From assembly GCF_001984175.1 (NCBI RefSeq), contig NZ_MTQP01000069.1, forward strand, positions 868,001 through 932,000: a stretch of DNA of 64,000 bases. The letters run 5' to 3'. How positions within the stretch are numbered: position 1 is the first letter of the stretch; every line of letters begins with the position of its first letter. This document shows, in pieces, positions 2,716 through 6,390 of the stretch. The notes beneath the pieces are model-generated. The model was not told the origin of the DNA, did no database searches, and saw nothing but the letters and a program-made list of their open reading frames with translations. Source of the DNA: Saccharothrix sp. ALI-22-I. GTDB lineage: Bacteria > Actinomycetota > Actinomycetes > Mycobacteriales > Pseudonocardiaceae. A program made the translations under genes and the position numbers.

Positions 2716-4620
2716 CTAGAGGAGGGTCAGTTGTTCTTGCGCTACGGGGGTGGGTGGGGTTGAGGCGGGGAGGCTGCCTTCGGGCCACAGGCCCTCTTCA
2801 TCGCCGGGGATGCCTGCGGCTTCGCGTTTGCCGTGTGCGTCCAGGCTGTGGCGGGCCAAGAGTGGCTGGACGCGGGCGGCCAGGCGGCGGCGGTAGTGGG
2901 TGTCCACGTAGGACCCGCGGGAGTAGAGCTTGCGGTAGTTGTCGGCCAGGTCCGGGCGTTCCCGCACCAGCCACCGGGCGAACCACTCGCGCGCGCCCGG
3001 TCGCAGGTGCAGTGGCATGACGGTGACGCCGGTGGCGCCCGCCGACGCGATCGACGCCAGCAGCGCGTCCAGCTGCTCCTCCGAGTCGGTCAACCCCGGC
3101 AGCACCGGCGCGACGAACACCCCGCACGGCAGGCCCGCGTCGCGGATTCGGCGCACCAGATCCAACCGCGCCTGCGGACTCGGGGTACCGGGCTCCAGGC
3201 CGGATTGCAGCTCCCGGTCCAGTAATGCGAGCGACACACCGATGCCCACCGACACCGAAGACGCGGCCTCCGCCAACAGCGGGAGGTCCCGTGCCAGCAC
3301 GGTGCCCTTGGTGAGGATCGAGAACGGCGTGCCCGAGTCGGCCAGTGCCCGGATGATGCCCGGCATCAACGCGTACCGGCCCTCGGCCCGCTGGTACGGG
3401 TCGGTGTTCGTGCCCATCGCCACGTGCTCGCGCTGCCACTTCCGCGACCGGAGCTGGGCCTTGAGCACCTCCACCGCGTTGACCTTCACCACCACCTGGG
3501 TGTCGAAGTCACGGCCCGCGTCCAGGTCCAGGTAGGTGTGCGTGTTGCGGGCGAAGCAGTTGTGGCTGACCAGACCGTTGGCCACGAAATCGCCGGTGCC
3601 CGTGGTGATGTCGTACAGCGTCCGCGTCACGCCCAGCGACTCCACCGACACCACCGACAGCCGGGACGTCACGGGCACCGCCATGCCCTCCACCGCGTTG
3701 CCGCGCGGGATCGCCGGACCCACCAGGTGCAGGAAGCGCAGCCGCTCGACCAGCCCGCCGATGATTCGCACCCCGCGCACCTCGACCACGTGCGACACGC
3801 GCAGCCGCGTCAACGCCAGCACCGCCGCCTCGAACACCACGCTGTCCGAACTGGACATCACCAGCTGACCGCCGGTGGAGCTGCCGCGCGCGTCGAACAG
3901 GCCCGCCAGGAACCCCTTCGACCACTCCTCCCCCGGCGTCGTCGGCCACTCCACCAGCTCGTTCTCCCGGGGCAGCCGACCGCCGGCGAACTCGCGCACC
4001 CGCGCCAGCACGTCCGGGTGGCTGGGCAGCCCGCCGCGCACCACGCCCCACAGGTAGCCGGTGCGGTACTCGTCGTCCTGCGCGGGCGGTGTGGCGAACC
4101 GACCCGTTCCGACCAGCTGCGCGCCCTTGACCAGGAACGGCCGCTCCTCGAAATCGTCGCAACGGCCGGGCGTGACGTGCTTCCAGCCCTCGTCGGTGAG
4201 GAACCTGTGGTCGCCGCCGGCCACCACCCGGGTGCCGTCGCTCAACGTCAGCTGGTACGCGGGCTTGGCTGTCTTCCAGTGCGCCTGCACGCGCGTGACC
4301 ACGAACCGGCCCTCCGACGTGCCGAACACCTCCTCGCCCAGGGACAGCTCGGCGATGGGTTTGGTGCGGCCGTCGGCCAGCAGCACGGGCGTGTCACCGG
4401 TCAGGCAGTACGTGCAGCCGTGCGTGCAGCCGCGGTAGGGGTTGATCGTCCAGCCGAACGGCAGCCCGCCGCCCGGCACCCGGTTCAACACGGACTTGGC
4501 GTTCACCTCGTGGAACACGACGTCGGCGAAGTCGGGAGTTCGTACGCTGCGAACCAGCCCCGGCAACCCCGGCAGAGCCTGCTGCCGATCAGCCCCGTCC
4601 TTCTGTCCGTCCCATCGCAT
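2716..4620 (-). CDS. Intein-containing Rv2578c-family radical SAM protein
   Basis: The precursor is 634 aa. The exteins (residues 1–71 and 355–634) form a radical SAM protein closely resembling Mycobacterium tuberculosis Rv2578c: GLVRSVRTPDF, INPYRGCTHGCTY, CFARNTHTYLD, MGTNTDPYQRAEGRYALM and SILTKGT are all recognisable. The 4Fe-4S ligands are C65-x3-C69-x2-C, but the third cysteine is Cys355, supplied by the C-extein after excision of the 283-aa intein. The start ATG 4620 (MRWDGQ) is chosen because it fits the Rv2578c N-terminus and because upstream sequence is the SOS box. The cellular reaction of this SplB-like family is not known; LexA control suggests a link to DNA damage. Divergent from pnuC. 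Confidence 0.92.
   Translation of the reverse strand: MRWDGQKDGADRQQALPGLPGLVRSVRTPDFADVVFHEVNAKSVLNRVPGGGLPFGWTINPYRGCTHGCTYCLTGDTPVLLADGRTKPIAELSLGEEVFGTSEGRFVVTRVQAHWKTAKPAYQLTLSDGTRVVAGGDHRFLTDEGWKHVTPGRCDDFEERPFLVKGAQLVGTGRFATPPAQDDEYRTGYLWGVVRGGLPSHPDVLARVREFAGGRLPRENELVEWPTTPGEEWSKGFLAGLFDARGSSTGGQLVMSSSDSVVFEAAVLALTRLRVSHVVEVRGVRIIGGLVERLRFLHLVGPAIPRGNAVEGMAVPVTSRLSVVSVESLGVTRTLYDITTGTGDFVANGLVSHNCFARNTHTYLDLDAGRDFDTQVVVKVNAVEVLKAQLRSRKWQREHVAMGTNTDPYQRAEGRYALMPGIIRALADSGTPFSILTKGTVLARDLPLLAEAASSVSVGIGVSLALLDRELQSGLEPGTPSPQARLDLVRRIRDAGLPCGVFVAPVLPGLTDSEEQLDALLASIASAGATGVTVMPLHLRPGAREWFARWLVRERPDLADNYRKLYSRGSYVDTHYRRRLAARVQPLLARHSLDAHGKREAAGIPGDEEGLWPEGSLPASTPPTPVAQEQLTLL
3559..4407 (-). 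mobile_element. Intein (283 aa) in the radical SAM Fe-S motif, with degenerate LAGLIDADG endonuclease
   Basis: It starts at Cys72 (CLTGDTPVLLADG, block A) and ends ...FVANGLVSHN before Cys355 as +1 nucleophile (blocks F/G: LYDITTGTGDFVANGLVSHN). Block B is TRVVAGGDHRFLT. The central region carries two LAGLIDADG-like motifs, TGYLWGVVRGGL and KGFLAGLFDARGSS. In both, the position that normally holds the catalytic acidic residue (eighth of LAGLIDADG) is Gly or Arg, so the splicing domain looks intact while the homing nuclease is probably inactive. Removal restores the sequence CTHGCTYCFARN. Confidence 0.92.
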
Positions 4621-4628
4621 GTCCACAT

Positions 4629-4644
4629 TCGAACACGTGTTCGA
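4629..4644. promoter_or_regulatory. LexA/SOS box between radical SAM gene and pnuC
   Basis: TCGAAC-ACGT-GTTCGA is an exact match to the actinobacterial SOS box TCGAAC-N4-GTTCGA and is the centre of an 18-bp perfect palindrome (4628–4645). It lies 9 bp before the radical SAM ATG (4620) and about 22 bp before the pnuC start, so LexA bound here could block both divergent promoters. Confidence 0.9.
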
Positions 4645-4666
4645 ACTATGGTCAATCGGAGTGCCT

Positions 4667-5317
4667 GTGTCAGTGCTGGACGTCATCCTGTGGCCCTTCA
4701 CCACCACCGCCCTGACCTTCGCCGGTGCCACCACGAGCTGGGGCGAGGTGGCCGGTTTCGTCACCGGCGCGCTCTGCGTGTGGCTGGTGGCCAAGCAGAA
4801 CCCGTTGAACTGGCCGATCGGCATCCTCAACAACCTCGCCTTCCTGGTGCTGTTCGCGACCAGCGGCCTGTTCGCCGATTCGGGCCTTCAGGTCGTCTAC
4901 ATCGCACTGGCGTTGTACGGCTGGTGGGCCTGGCTGCGCGGCGGCGCCGAACACTCCGCCCTGCACGTCAGCCGGACCACCCGCGCGCAGTGGCAGTGGC
5001 TGCTCGCGGCCGGTGTGGCGGGCACCCTGCTGCTGGTGTGGGTGCTCACCTCGTTCACCACCTCGACGGTGCCCTGGGCGGACTCCGTGACCACTGTGCT
5101 CTCGCTGCTGGCCACGTGGGGCCAGACCCGCAAGAAGGTCGAGTGCTGGTGGCTGTGGATCGCCGCGGACGTGATCTACGTTCCGTTGTACGCCTACAAG
5201 GACCTGTGGCTGACCGCGATCCTCTACGTCGGCTTCATGGCTCTGTGCGTGCTCGGGCTGCGCAACTGGACGAAGGCGCTGCGCGACGACCTGCGTGACG
5301 AACTGGTCGTCGCGTGA
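4667..5317 (+). CDS. pnuC: Nicotinamide riboside transporter PnuC
   Basis: 216 aa integral membrane protein with about seven predicted helices. Family signatures are NPLNWPIGILNN (residues about 45–56), the ALYGWWAW segment and the C-terminal ADVIYVPLYAYKDLW stretch. PnuC imports nicotinamide riboside by facilitated diffusion, trapped by phosphorylation. GTG 4667 is preferred because CGGAG at 4656–4660 gives proper spacing; GTG 4661 and 4673 are alternatives. Its stop overlaps the nadR start (GTGA), so importer and kinase are coupled. The SOS box lies immediately upstream, which is unusual for NAD salvage. Confidence 0.9.
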   Translation: MSVLDVILWPFTTTALTFAGATTSWGEVAGFVTGALCVWLVAKQNPLNWPIGILNNLAFLVLFATSGLFADSGLQVVYIALALYGWWAWLRGGAEHSALHVSRTTRAQWQWLLAAGVAGTLLLVWVLTSFTTSTVPWADSVTTVLSLLATWGQTRKKVECWWLWIAADVIYVPLYAYKDLWLTAILYVGFMALCVLGLRNWTKALRDDLRDELVVA

Positions 5318-6390
5318 CCGACTTCGACCACGCGTTGGTGCTCGGCAAGTTCTACCCGCCGCACGCCGGTCACCACCACCTCATCCGCACCGCCGCCGCC
5401 CGCAGCCGGCGGACCACGGTGACCGTGCTGGCGTCGGCCGTGGAGTCCATCCCGGTCGCGGACCGGGTCGCGTGGCTGCGCGCCGAGCACGCGGAGACGC
5501 CCGGTCTCGTCGTGCTCGGCGACGTCGACGACCACGAGATGGACTTCCACAGCGACACCGTGTGGGAGTTGCACATGGGCGTGGCACGGGCCGTACTCGC
5601 GCGGCGGGCCATCCTGGACGGAGACCCCGCGTCGGCGGCGATCGACGCGGTGTTCTCCAGCGAGCGCTACGGCGACGAGATGGCCAAACGGCTGGGCGCC
5701 CGGCACGTCCTGGTCGACCTGGACCGCGGCACGCACCCCGTGTCGGGCACCGCGGTCCGGGCCGATCCGCGCGGCCAGTGGGCACACCTCGCGCCGGCGA
5801 CCCGGGTGGGGCTGTGCGCGCGGATCGTGGTGCTCGGGGCGGAGAGCACGGGCACCACGACGCTGTCGCGTGACCTCGCGGCCGCACTGGGCGCGCCCTG
5901 GGTGCCCGAATACGGCCGCGCGCACACCGAGCTCAAGCTGGCCGCCGCCCGCGCGTTCGACCCGGACGCGACCATCGACAGTCTGGTGTGGACGGTCGGC
6001 GACTTCCAGGACGTGGCGCGCAGGCAACGGGAGCTCGCCGACGCCGCCGTGGACGGCCCGGTCCTGGTGTGCGACAACGACCCGTGGGCCGCCACCGTCT
6101 GGGGTCACCGGTACCTGGGCGCGCCACACCCGGACATCGCGCCGGACGCCCACCGCCCCGCCCTGTACCTGCTGACCGATCACGTCGGCGTGCCGTTCGA
6201 GCAGGACGGGTGGCGGGACGGCGAGCACCTGCGCGCGTGGATGACGGCCCGGTTCCAGGCCGGACTGGCCGCGCGGGGCGTGCCGTGGCGGCTGGTCACC
6301 GGGTCCGCGGACCAGCGGCTGCGGCAGGCCCTGGCGGCCTGCGAGGAGGCGGTGGCCCGGCACTTCCGGTTCACCCACCCGCTCGGGTAG
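5314..6390 (+). CDS. nadR: NadR-type NMN adenylyltransferase / ribosylnicotinamide kinase
   Basis: 358 aa, GTG start coupled to pnuC. Residues 1–165 form the nucleotidyltransferase with GKFYPPHAGHHHL (HxGH motif) and the SGTAVRADP signature; residues about 170–358 form the P-loop kinase. Together they phosphorylate nicotinamide riboside and adenylate NMN to NAD. The Walker A is GAESTGTTT, with Thr at the usual Lys position, so the kinase half may be altered or may use a variant P-loop. There is no N-terminal HTH, so unlike the enterobacterial protein it is not a repressor. It completes a two-gene salvage unit with pnuC. Confidence 0.9.
   Translation: MTDFDHALVLGKFYPPHAGHHHLIRTAAARSRRTTVTVLASAVESIPVADRVAWLRAEHAETPGLVVLGDVDDHEMDFHSDTVWELHMGVARAVLARRAILDGDPASAAIDAVFSSERYGDEMAKRLGARHVLVDLDRGTHPVSGTAVRADPRGQWAHLAPATRVGLCARIVVLGAESTGTTTLSRDLAAALGAPWVPEYGRAHTELKLAAARAFDPDATIDSLVWTVGDFQDVARRQRELADAAVDGPVLVCDNDPWAATVWGHRYLGAPHPDIAPDAHRPALYLLTDHVGVPFEQDGWRDGEHLRAWMTARFQAGLAARGVPWRLVTGSADQRLRQALAACEEAVARHFRFTHPLG

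Follow-up and report, generated by a model that had tools for sequence, protein, structure and literature searches.

In a 64,000-nucleotide stretch of the genome of Saccharothrix sp. ALI-22-I (contig NZ_MTQP01000069.1, here called the window), a perfect box for the SOS repressor LexA lies between two divergent units: a radical S-adenosylmethionine (radical-SAM) gene of the Rv2578c family, which is interrupted by an intein, and the gene pair pnuC–nadR (the second gene NadR-like), for salvage of nicotinamide adenine dinucleotide (NAD). A preliminary description of this DNA had proposed that the box places both units under SOS control. The box and its setting were confirmed, SOS control of pnuC–nadR is only partly supported, and pnuC is most likely transcribed from a separate promoter. 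Comparison with relatives strongly supports the box being first of all the operator of the Rv2578c-type radical-SAM gene. We consider it probable that the radical-SAM promoter is leaderless, with the box as its LexA operator, and that pnuC–nadR is transcribed from a separate promoter within the radical-SAM coding region. The parts of the locus are known but their arrangement is new; orphan inteins came up as one unusual additional result.

The LexA box and its genomic background

The box, TCGAACACGTGTTCGA, matches the actinobacterial LexA operator pattern TCGAAC-N4-GTTCGA at 4629-4644 without a mismatch, and its flanks extend it to an 18-bp palindrome, TTCGAACACGTGTTCGAA. The start codons of the radical-SAM gene and pnuC are 46 bp apart. 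The perfect palindrome, described beforehand as lying within about 25 bp of both starts, is separated from the radical-SAM ATG by 8 bp and from the pnuC GTG at 4667 by 22 bp. A first-order model with the composition of the window predicts 0.004 perfect boxes in 64 kb and 0.6 in the 10.3-Mb genome, which actually holds 21 (42 strand rows). Boxes with at most one mismatch number 141 genome-wide, versus 19 for a reversed control. The lexA gene of the same genome (TIGR00498, 250 bits) has a perfect box 171 bp ahead of the start of its open reading frame (ORF). Together with nine other ORFs at or near the perfect boxes, it was scanned with profiles. Other perfect boxes are found at or close to menD and two further ORFs, one priA-like and one gyrB-like (L121, L127, and L134, around base 2001); menD scored over its cutoff, and the priA-like and gyrB-like ORFs, both cut by the fetched stretch, scored under theirs.

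Family-wide retention of the box ahead of the radical-SAM gene

A −35 and a −10 hexamer, read from the sequence on the minus strand (Table 1), form the putative radical-SAM promoter. On the plus strand, the −35 appears as GTCAA, each letter of which is kept in 42 to 43 of the 43 rows of an alignment made up of the 42 compact loci described below and Actinokineospora fastidiosa. Six bases separate the −10 from the ATG, which predicts a leaderless transcript starting at the ATG at 4620.

A similar geometry of box and promoter recurs in radical-SAM loci of other genera. Our sample comprised 40 radical-SAM 5′ regions, in 36 of which the N-extein was located (four regions were without it). Among these 36 loci, the box is perfect in 32, carries one mismatch in 3, and was not resolved in 1 (G125), and in 31 it ends 8 to 10 bp from the start codon. 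No pnuC match was found in the fetched stretches of the 36 loci. A further 17 radical-SAM loci, including three N-exteins missing from the 40 regions but located elsewhere in their genomes, all have a perfect box; one of them (G148) has a pnuC fragment nearby. Combined, 53 other family loci without an adjoining intact pnuC carry 49 perfect and 3 one-mismatch boxes ahead of the radical-SAM gene. Because the survey of these loci finds the box kept without pnuC, the operator appears to belong with the radical-SAM gene family-wide, and since pnuC-less loci mostly retain the box, its conservation requires no role for pnuC. The earlier link between the box and the Rv2578c-type gene is thus strongly supported. 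For the radical-SAM gene, the box has two sequence marks of an operator: it overlaps the predicted promoter of the gene downstream and is conserved across species.

The divergent arrangement in relatives

We surveyed 390 genomes of the family, 66 of which have a close PnuC (E value of 1e-35 or better). Compact loci with pnuC facing away from the radical-SAM gene were found in Saccharothrix (19), Lentzea (19), the genus g22 (3), and Umezawaea (1), and all 42 have a perfect box 20 to 30 bp from pnuC, some pnuC starts having been set by eye. Only perfect boxes were kept in this count; when it was compared with the 82-row list, no close-pnuC locus of the four genera had been lost. L038 and L148, which have perfect boxes, are within it, and the 19 Saccharothrix loci stand for 18 of 25 genomes of the genus plus S. 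coeruleofusca. Conservation of layout and box in relatives, a check proposed with the preliminary description, therefore holds for all 42 close-pnuC loci examined in four genera. The distance from box to pnuC start is steady; it is 22 bp in Saccharothrix, and Lentzea has 20 bp.

Outside these genera the arrangement loosens. In Actinokineospora the distance between box and pnuC ranges from about 30 bp to 1.2 kb, and in L187 no box was found. The Kibdelosporangium group (g27) has a one-mismatch box about 0.2 to 1.1 kb from pnuC in four loci, and in others no box was found within 1.6 kb. Both groups have other promoter-like sequences ahead of pnuC. The Streptomyces and Glycomyces pnuC loci examined lack a radical-SAM neighbor, and a search of 1.5 kb that allowed one mismatch found no box. 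As a separate observation, Streptomyces and Phytomonospora pnuC promoters (L062-L076, L081, and L082) carry, by eye, TATAGTCA-NNN-TGACT-like palindromes over the −10, which suggests a different regulator of NAD salvage there.

An element within the radical-SAM coding region follows pnuC

In the compact loci, the sequence GTTCGTACGCT lies 80 to 81 bp upstream of the box (72 bp in Umezawaea). It contains a −10-like hexamer, TACGCT (4543-4548), from which the predicted pnuC start falls near 4555, and it overlies the radical-SAM N-extein codons AGC GTA CGA AC. The first three codons are invariant in all 42 loci, and two of them are rare: in the window's three genes, GTA makes up 3 of 121 Val codons and CGA 5 of 98 Arg codons. 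In the 19 Saccharothrix loci with pnuC, AGC GTA CGA is fixed while several adjacent codons vary. The 11-mer occurs three times in the genome of the window.

The presence of the element tracks that of pnuC. Counted as distinct sequences, GTTCGTACGCT is found in 29 of 29 compact loci versus 0 of 62 other radical-SAM loci. Seven Saccharothrix genomes have no intact close pnuC: in the four that have the radical-SAM gene, the element is missing and GTG CGC or GTG CGG stands instead of GTA CGA, and the other three have lost the part of the N-extein that would bear it. Conversely, the element can outlive the gene in which it lies. In the Umezawaea radical-SAM remnant the start codon is gone, the frame is shifted, and 22 of 105 positions that are invariant elsewhere have changed; GTTCGTACGCT is intact there, as it is in three loci whose radical-SAM domain has gone. 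From this tracking of pnuC we read GTTCGTACGCT as the probable pnuC promoter. Seven Actinokineospora loci offer a parallel, six having a similar hexamer, TAGGCT, 12 to 53 bp ahead of the pnuC start, preceded by TTCG in two. As a separate observation, two Saccharothrix genomes (L143 and L144) have decaying pnuC and nadR remnants next to a full-length radical-SAM gene.

The interval between the box and pnuC offers little in the way of a promoter. Its well-conserved letters are GTCAA, that is, the radical-SAM −35 on the opposite strand, and the ribosome site only; no conserved −10 was seen there in the 43-row alignment. TATGGT, found in this interval of the window, was rejected as the pnuC promoter, not being conserved in relatives. 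For the SOS control proposed earlier for pnuC–nadR, the box close to the pnuC start stands; a pnuC promoter at the box is less likely, since the element that tracks pnuC lies 72 to 81 bp upstream. A pnuC promoter away from the box, the finding that the preliminary description had named as speaking against itself, is now the better-supported reading of the sequences.

Several points weigh against placing the pnuC promoter at GTTCGTACGCT and the box with the radical-SAM promoter. No clear −35 was seen 16 to 18 bp ahead of TACGCT, and the 42 compact loci are phylogenetically related. The element is retained in five of five Lentzea genomes without pnuC (L267-L271 with L284-L288). There, a YibE/F-like gene (named from the PF07907 match in the window) starts 40 to 80 bp past the box in four genomes and 319 bp past it in G307, and one reading, offered without claim of proof, is that this gene may have reused the element. 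Recent decay of pnuC was rejected as the cause, because no pnuC or nadR remnant with an E value below 0.4 was found in 2.0 to 2.6 kb and another gene had moved up. Lastly, the Umezawaea box is perfect after loss of the radical-SAM gene, and the −10 letters outside the box and one −35 letter of the radical-SAM promoter have changed. For an unused box, survival of all 12 fixed letters would have a chance of 0.06, in one genome; this is a hint that the box may have some role for pnuC.

Proposed mechanism and alternatives

In the explanation that we favor, the radical-SAM promoter would be SOS inducible and leaderless, with its operator built in, the −35 TTGACC and −10 TCGAAT flanking or overlapping the box. 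Transcription of pnuC–nadR would begin at GTTCGTACGCT, near 4555, heading toward the box and reading through it, which would put the box about 75 to 90 nucleotides into the pnuC leader. The two promoters would then face each other, with 5′ ends overlapping by about 65 bp. LexA, predicted to bind the box, would turn the radical-SAM gene off and possibly act as a roadblock that slows pnuC. Upon DNA damage LexA would depart, the roadblock would lift, and radical-SAM transcription would run head-on into the pnuC promoter. LexA itself could affect pnuC only as a roadblock because the box would sit within the pnuC leader; the outcome for pnuC, through roadblock or interference, could have either sign. 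The net sign for NAD salvage is not readable from sequence, and both signs occur among the 175 LexA-bound units reported to respond to mitomycin C in Streptomyces venezuelae, 97 going up and 78 down (PMC9380542).

The same architecture without roadblock or interference, in which the box acts on the radical-SAM gene only and pnuC–nadR is a neighbor without any LexA effect, is a real possibility, although we would not expect it to be the outcome. The radical-SAM gene accounts for the conservation of the box; however, a repressor bound in the leader and a head-on promoter would be expected to have some effect, and Umezawaea retains its box (chance, 0.06). We regard as unlikely the opposite view, one LexA operator over two divergent promoters, with pnuC–nadR directly repressed and induced by DNA damage for NAD resupply; that damage drains NAD through ligase and ADP-ribosylation is an idea put forward in the preliminary description. 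The 46 bp between the start codons and the steady spacing from box to pnuC agree with it, as do perfect boxes beside pnuC in loci that have lost the radical-SAM domain or carry a broken one (G127, G154, S. coeruleofusca, G163, G162, and Umezawaea). In A. fastidiosa (L059), and in that species alone, the pnuC TAGGCT follows closely after the box, which could cover this putative promoter. In Saccharothrix, moreover, perfect boxes are present in 19 of 19 cases with pnuC versus 2 of 7 without it (Fisher test, 0.0003, kinship not corrected). Box loss after pnuC loss was nevertheless set aside as proof of a pnuC role, being confined to this genus and contradicted by Lentzea and Actinokineospora, in which five of five and eight of eight genomes without a close pnuC keep a perfect box. 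In the truncated-host Saccharothrix loci an intein ORF still stands behind the promoter and may itself maintain it, and therefore box retention there is no proof for pnuC either. Two divergent promoters under one operator also fit poorly with the box-to-pnuC interval, with no conserved −10, TATGGT not kept, and GTCAA matching the radical-SAM −35, and with the pnuC-linked element lying upstream of the box.

It is more doubtful still that GTTCGTACGCT is an operator or other control element of pnuC rather than a −10, with the pnuC start elsewhere in the leader. The lack of a consensus −35 at proper spacing would fit this, and Streptomyces pnuC operons bear a promoter palindrome (AGTCA, three bases, and TGACT, or nearly so), so that other modes of pnuC control are possible. 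Against it, TACGCT fits TANNNT, which we take to be the relevant −10 pattern, and the Actinokineospora TAGGCT stands at promoter distance from pnuC.

The favored explanation, with a radical-SAM promoter at the box and a pnuC promoter at GTTCGTACGCT, corrects a tempting inference: a box beside two starts need not control both genes. The comparison behind it used the codon usage of a neighboring gene, which goes with pnuC even where that gene is dead. Should LexA act in the pnuC leader, a roadblock or colliding transcription would couple NAD salvage in these actinomycetes to the SOS state.

Gene identities and feature coordinates

The radical-SAM protein exceeds the curated cutoffs of both NF038135 and NF038136 in profile searches, which places it in the Rv2578c family, and the gene is a probable repair gene. 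PnuC exceeds the curated cutoff of TIGR01528. The third protein does not reach the cutoff of the NadR equivalog domain TIGR01526 (139.2 bits against 341.15) and is therefore called NadR-like; its start shares 4 bp with the end of pnuC. GTG 4667 is the likely pnuC start, having a ribosome site, GGAG (4658-4661), in front and aligning with the starts of relatives. GTG 4661 was set aside as the start, GTG 4667 being the one that matches relatives.

TABLE 1 Coordinates of features in the window
Feature	Position	Strand	Basis or remark
LexA (SOS) box TCGAACACGTGTTCGA, perfect palindrome	4629..4644	no strand	0 mismatches; conserved in relatives
−35 TTGACC, putative radical-SAM promoter	4650..4655	-	sequence reading; TTGAC or near form in other-genus loci
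−10 TCGAAT, putative radical-SAM promoter	4627..4632	-	17 bp from −35, overlaps box
GTTCGTACGCT, proposed pnuC promoter	4538..4548	+	42/42 compact loci; promoter role proposed from sequence
Radical-SAM gene with intein, Rv2578c family	2716..4620	-	NF038136, 808 bits (cutoff 700); NF038135, 512 bits (cutoff 430)
Radical-SAM ATG	4620	-
N-extein	4408-4620	-
Intein, 283 amino acids	3559..4407	-	ahead of third Cys of cluster motif
C-extein	2716-3558	-
pnuC, nicotinamide riboside transporter	4667..5317	+	TIGR01528, 89.9 bits (cutoff 42.45); PF04973
NadR-like nicotinamide mononucleotide adenylyltransferase/ribosylnicotinamide kinase	5314..6390	+	TIGR01526, 139.2 bits; PF13521, 87 bits

Comparison with known systems

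The closest parallel to the radical-SAM unit is vnz_31145 of S. venezuelae, a radical-SAM gene with a LexA peak in chromatin immunoprecipitation, whose RNA is reported to rise 19.97-fold after mitomycin C and which its authors compare to thymine cross-link repair enzymes (PMC9380542). Both are radical-SAM genes, one within a measured LexA regulon and one with a LexA box. The Saccharothrix promoter differs in that it looks leaderless, has a perfect palindrome, and faces a putative pnuC promoter. Neither pnuC nor nicotinamide appears in the main text of that study (PMC9380542). In several strains, members of the Rv2578c family bear the annotation putative SplB (PMC12924846). The window protein matches the family over the cutoff but is split by its intein at a cluster cysteine, and its biochemical function is putative. 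On the other side of the box, the pairing of a transporter with a NadR-type enzyme resembles pnuC–nadR units of other bacteria under NAD regulators such as NrtR. The Saccharothrix unit differs in having a LexA box in its predicted leader.

In the open-access literature searched, we found no paper joining Rv2578c with SOS, nothing relevant by title on pnuC and LexA, and none combining LexA, SOS box, Actinobacteria, and nicotinamide. Only a Thermus phage paper brought intein, radical SAM, and LexA together, and the search for free-standing inteins returned nothing.

Inteins that have outlived their host protein

The intein is inserted in what we take to be the CX3CX2C cluster motif of the radical-SAM protein. 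The window protein and a 23-member alignment show the hallmarks Cys1, block-B His, C-terminal His-Asn, and Cys+1, residues to which we assign the usual splicing roles. Profile scores are 34.1 for PF14890, just under the cutoff of 35.8, and 31.6 for TIGR01445, over the cutoff of 24.5. A profile of the intein matches splicing domains of the DnaB type and the latter half of I-DmoI. All 25 Saccharothrix genomes have the intein, and 20 have a C-extein, at full length in 18; G162 has a C-extein cut at 95 of 280 residues, and in G163 it is split between frames. As a separate observation, the Saccharothrix intein (window 3559-4407) is without the acidic residue of what is presumably the first LAGLIDADG motif, which Actinokineospora copies keep. 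With this residue lost, homing is probably dead, even though every genome of the genus carries the intein.

Two sets of genomes retain the intein after decay of the host gene. In G127, G154, and S. coeruleofusca (the last outside the 25-genome set), the intein is in frame with its splice residues, the N-extein is shortened, and the radical-SAM domain is gone; the ratio of nonsynonymous to synonymous substitution rates (dN/dS) for these three is 0.56 to 0.59. In G157, G059, and G021, all that is left is a 294-codon ORF of 13 N-terminal residues followed by the intein, from which the block-B His and the C-terminal His-Asn have been lost. Upstream of this ORF stand TTGACG-17-TCGAAT and a one-mismatch box, TAGAACGCGTGTTCGA, 8 bp ahead of the ATG; the TAGAAC variant of the box also precedes two other radical-SAM genes (G054 and G116). 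Pairwise dN/dS in the 294-codon frame is 0.13 to 0.18, and G157 and G059 differ by 29 synonymous and 12 nonsynonymous changes (neutral probability, 5e-8). One reverse frame also has a low ratio, 0.17 to 0.26, but has stops within. The intein thus seems to have outlived its host domain and to persist in three genomes as a free-standing ORF, apparently splicing-dead and under purifying selection. A MetRS tree covering 20 of the 25 genomes gave no choice between one and two origins of the orphan inteins. The orphan-intein loci are L137, L138, and L139 (2965-3849, plus strand) and L142, L141, and L038.

The HO endonuclease of yeast descends from the VMA intein. Unlike HO, the orphan intein is bacterial, linked to LexA, and without the conserved acidic residue of the presumed first LAGLIDADG motif. 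What the two have in common is that a selfish element has turned into a free-standing gene, HO being a domesticated homing element (PMC7282813). Orphan inteins offer an unusual system for asking what role an intein has after loss of its host protein. Tentatively, and as a rather speculative picture of the whole locus, the Saccharothrix radical-SAM gene may have become a shell for a hidden NAD-salvage promoter, with a LexA roadblock and SOS-gated NAD uptake, and, in one lineage, for a domesticated, splicing-dead intein driven by an SOS promoter.

In a few genomes the intein and the C-extein lie apart: by about 14 kb in G126 (contig C8, 128813-129673 and 143519-144376), by about 22 kb in G109 (contig C1, 945511-946371 and 968589-969449), and on different contigs in G148. 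A Streptomyces phage integrase is reported to target a gene of the Rv2578c radical-SAM family (PMC12924846), and the separations in G126, G109, and G148 look like the outcome of integration by an element close to the intein junction.

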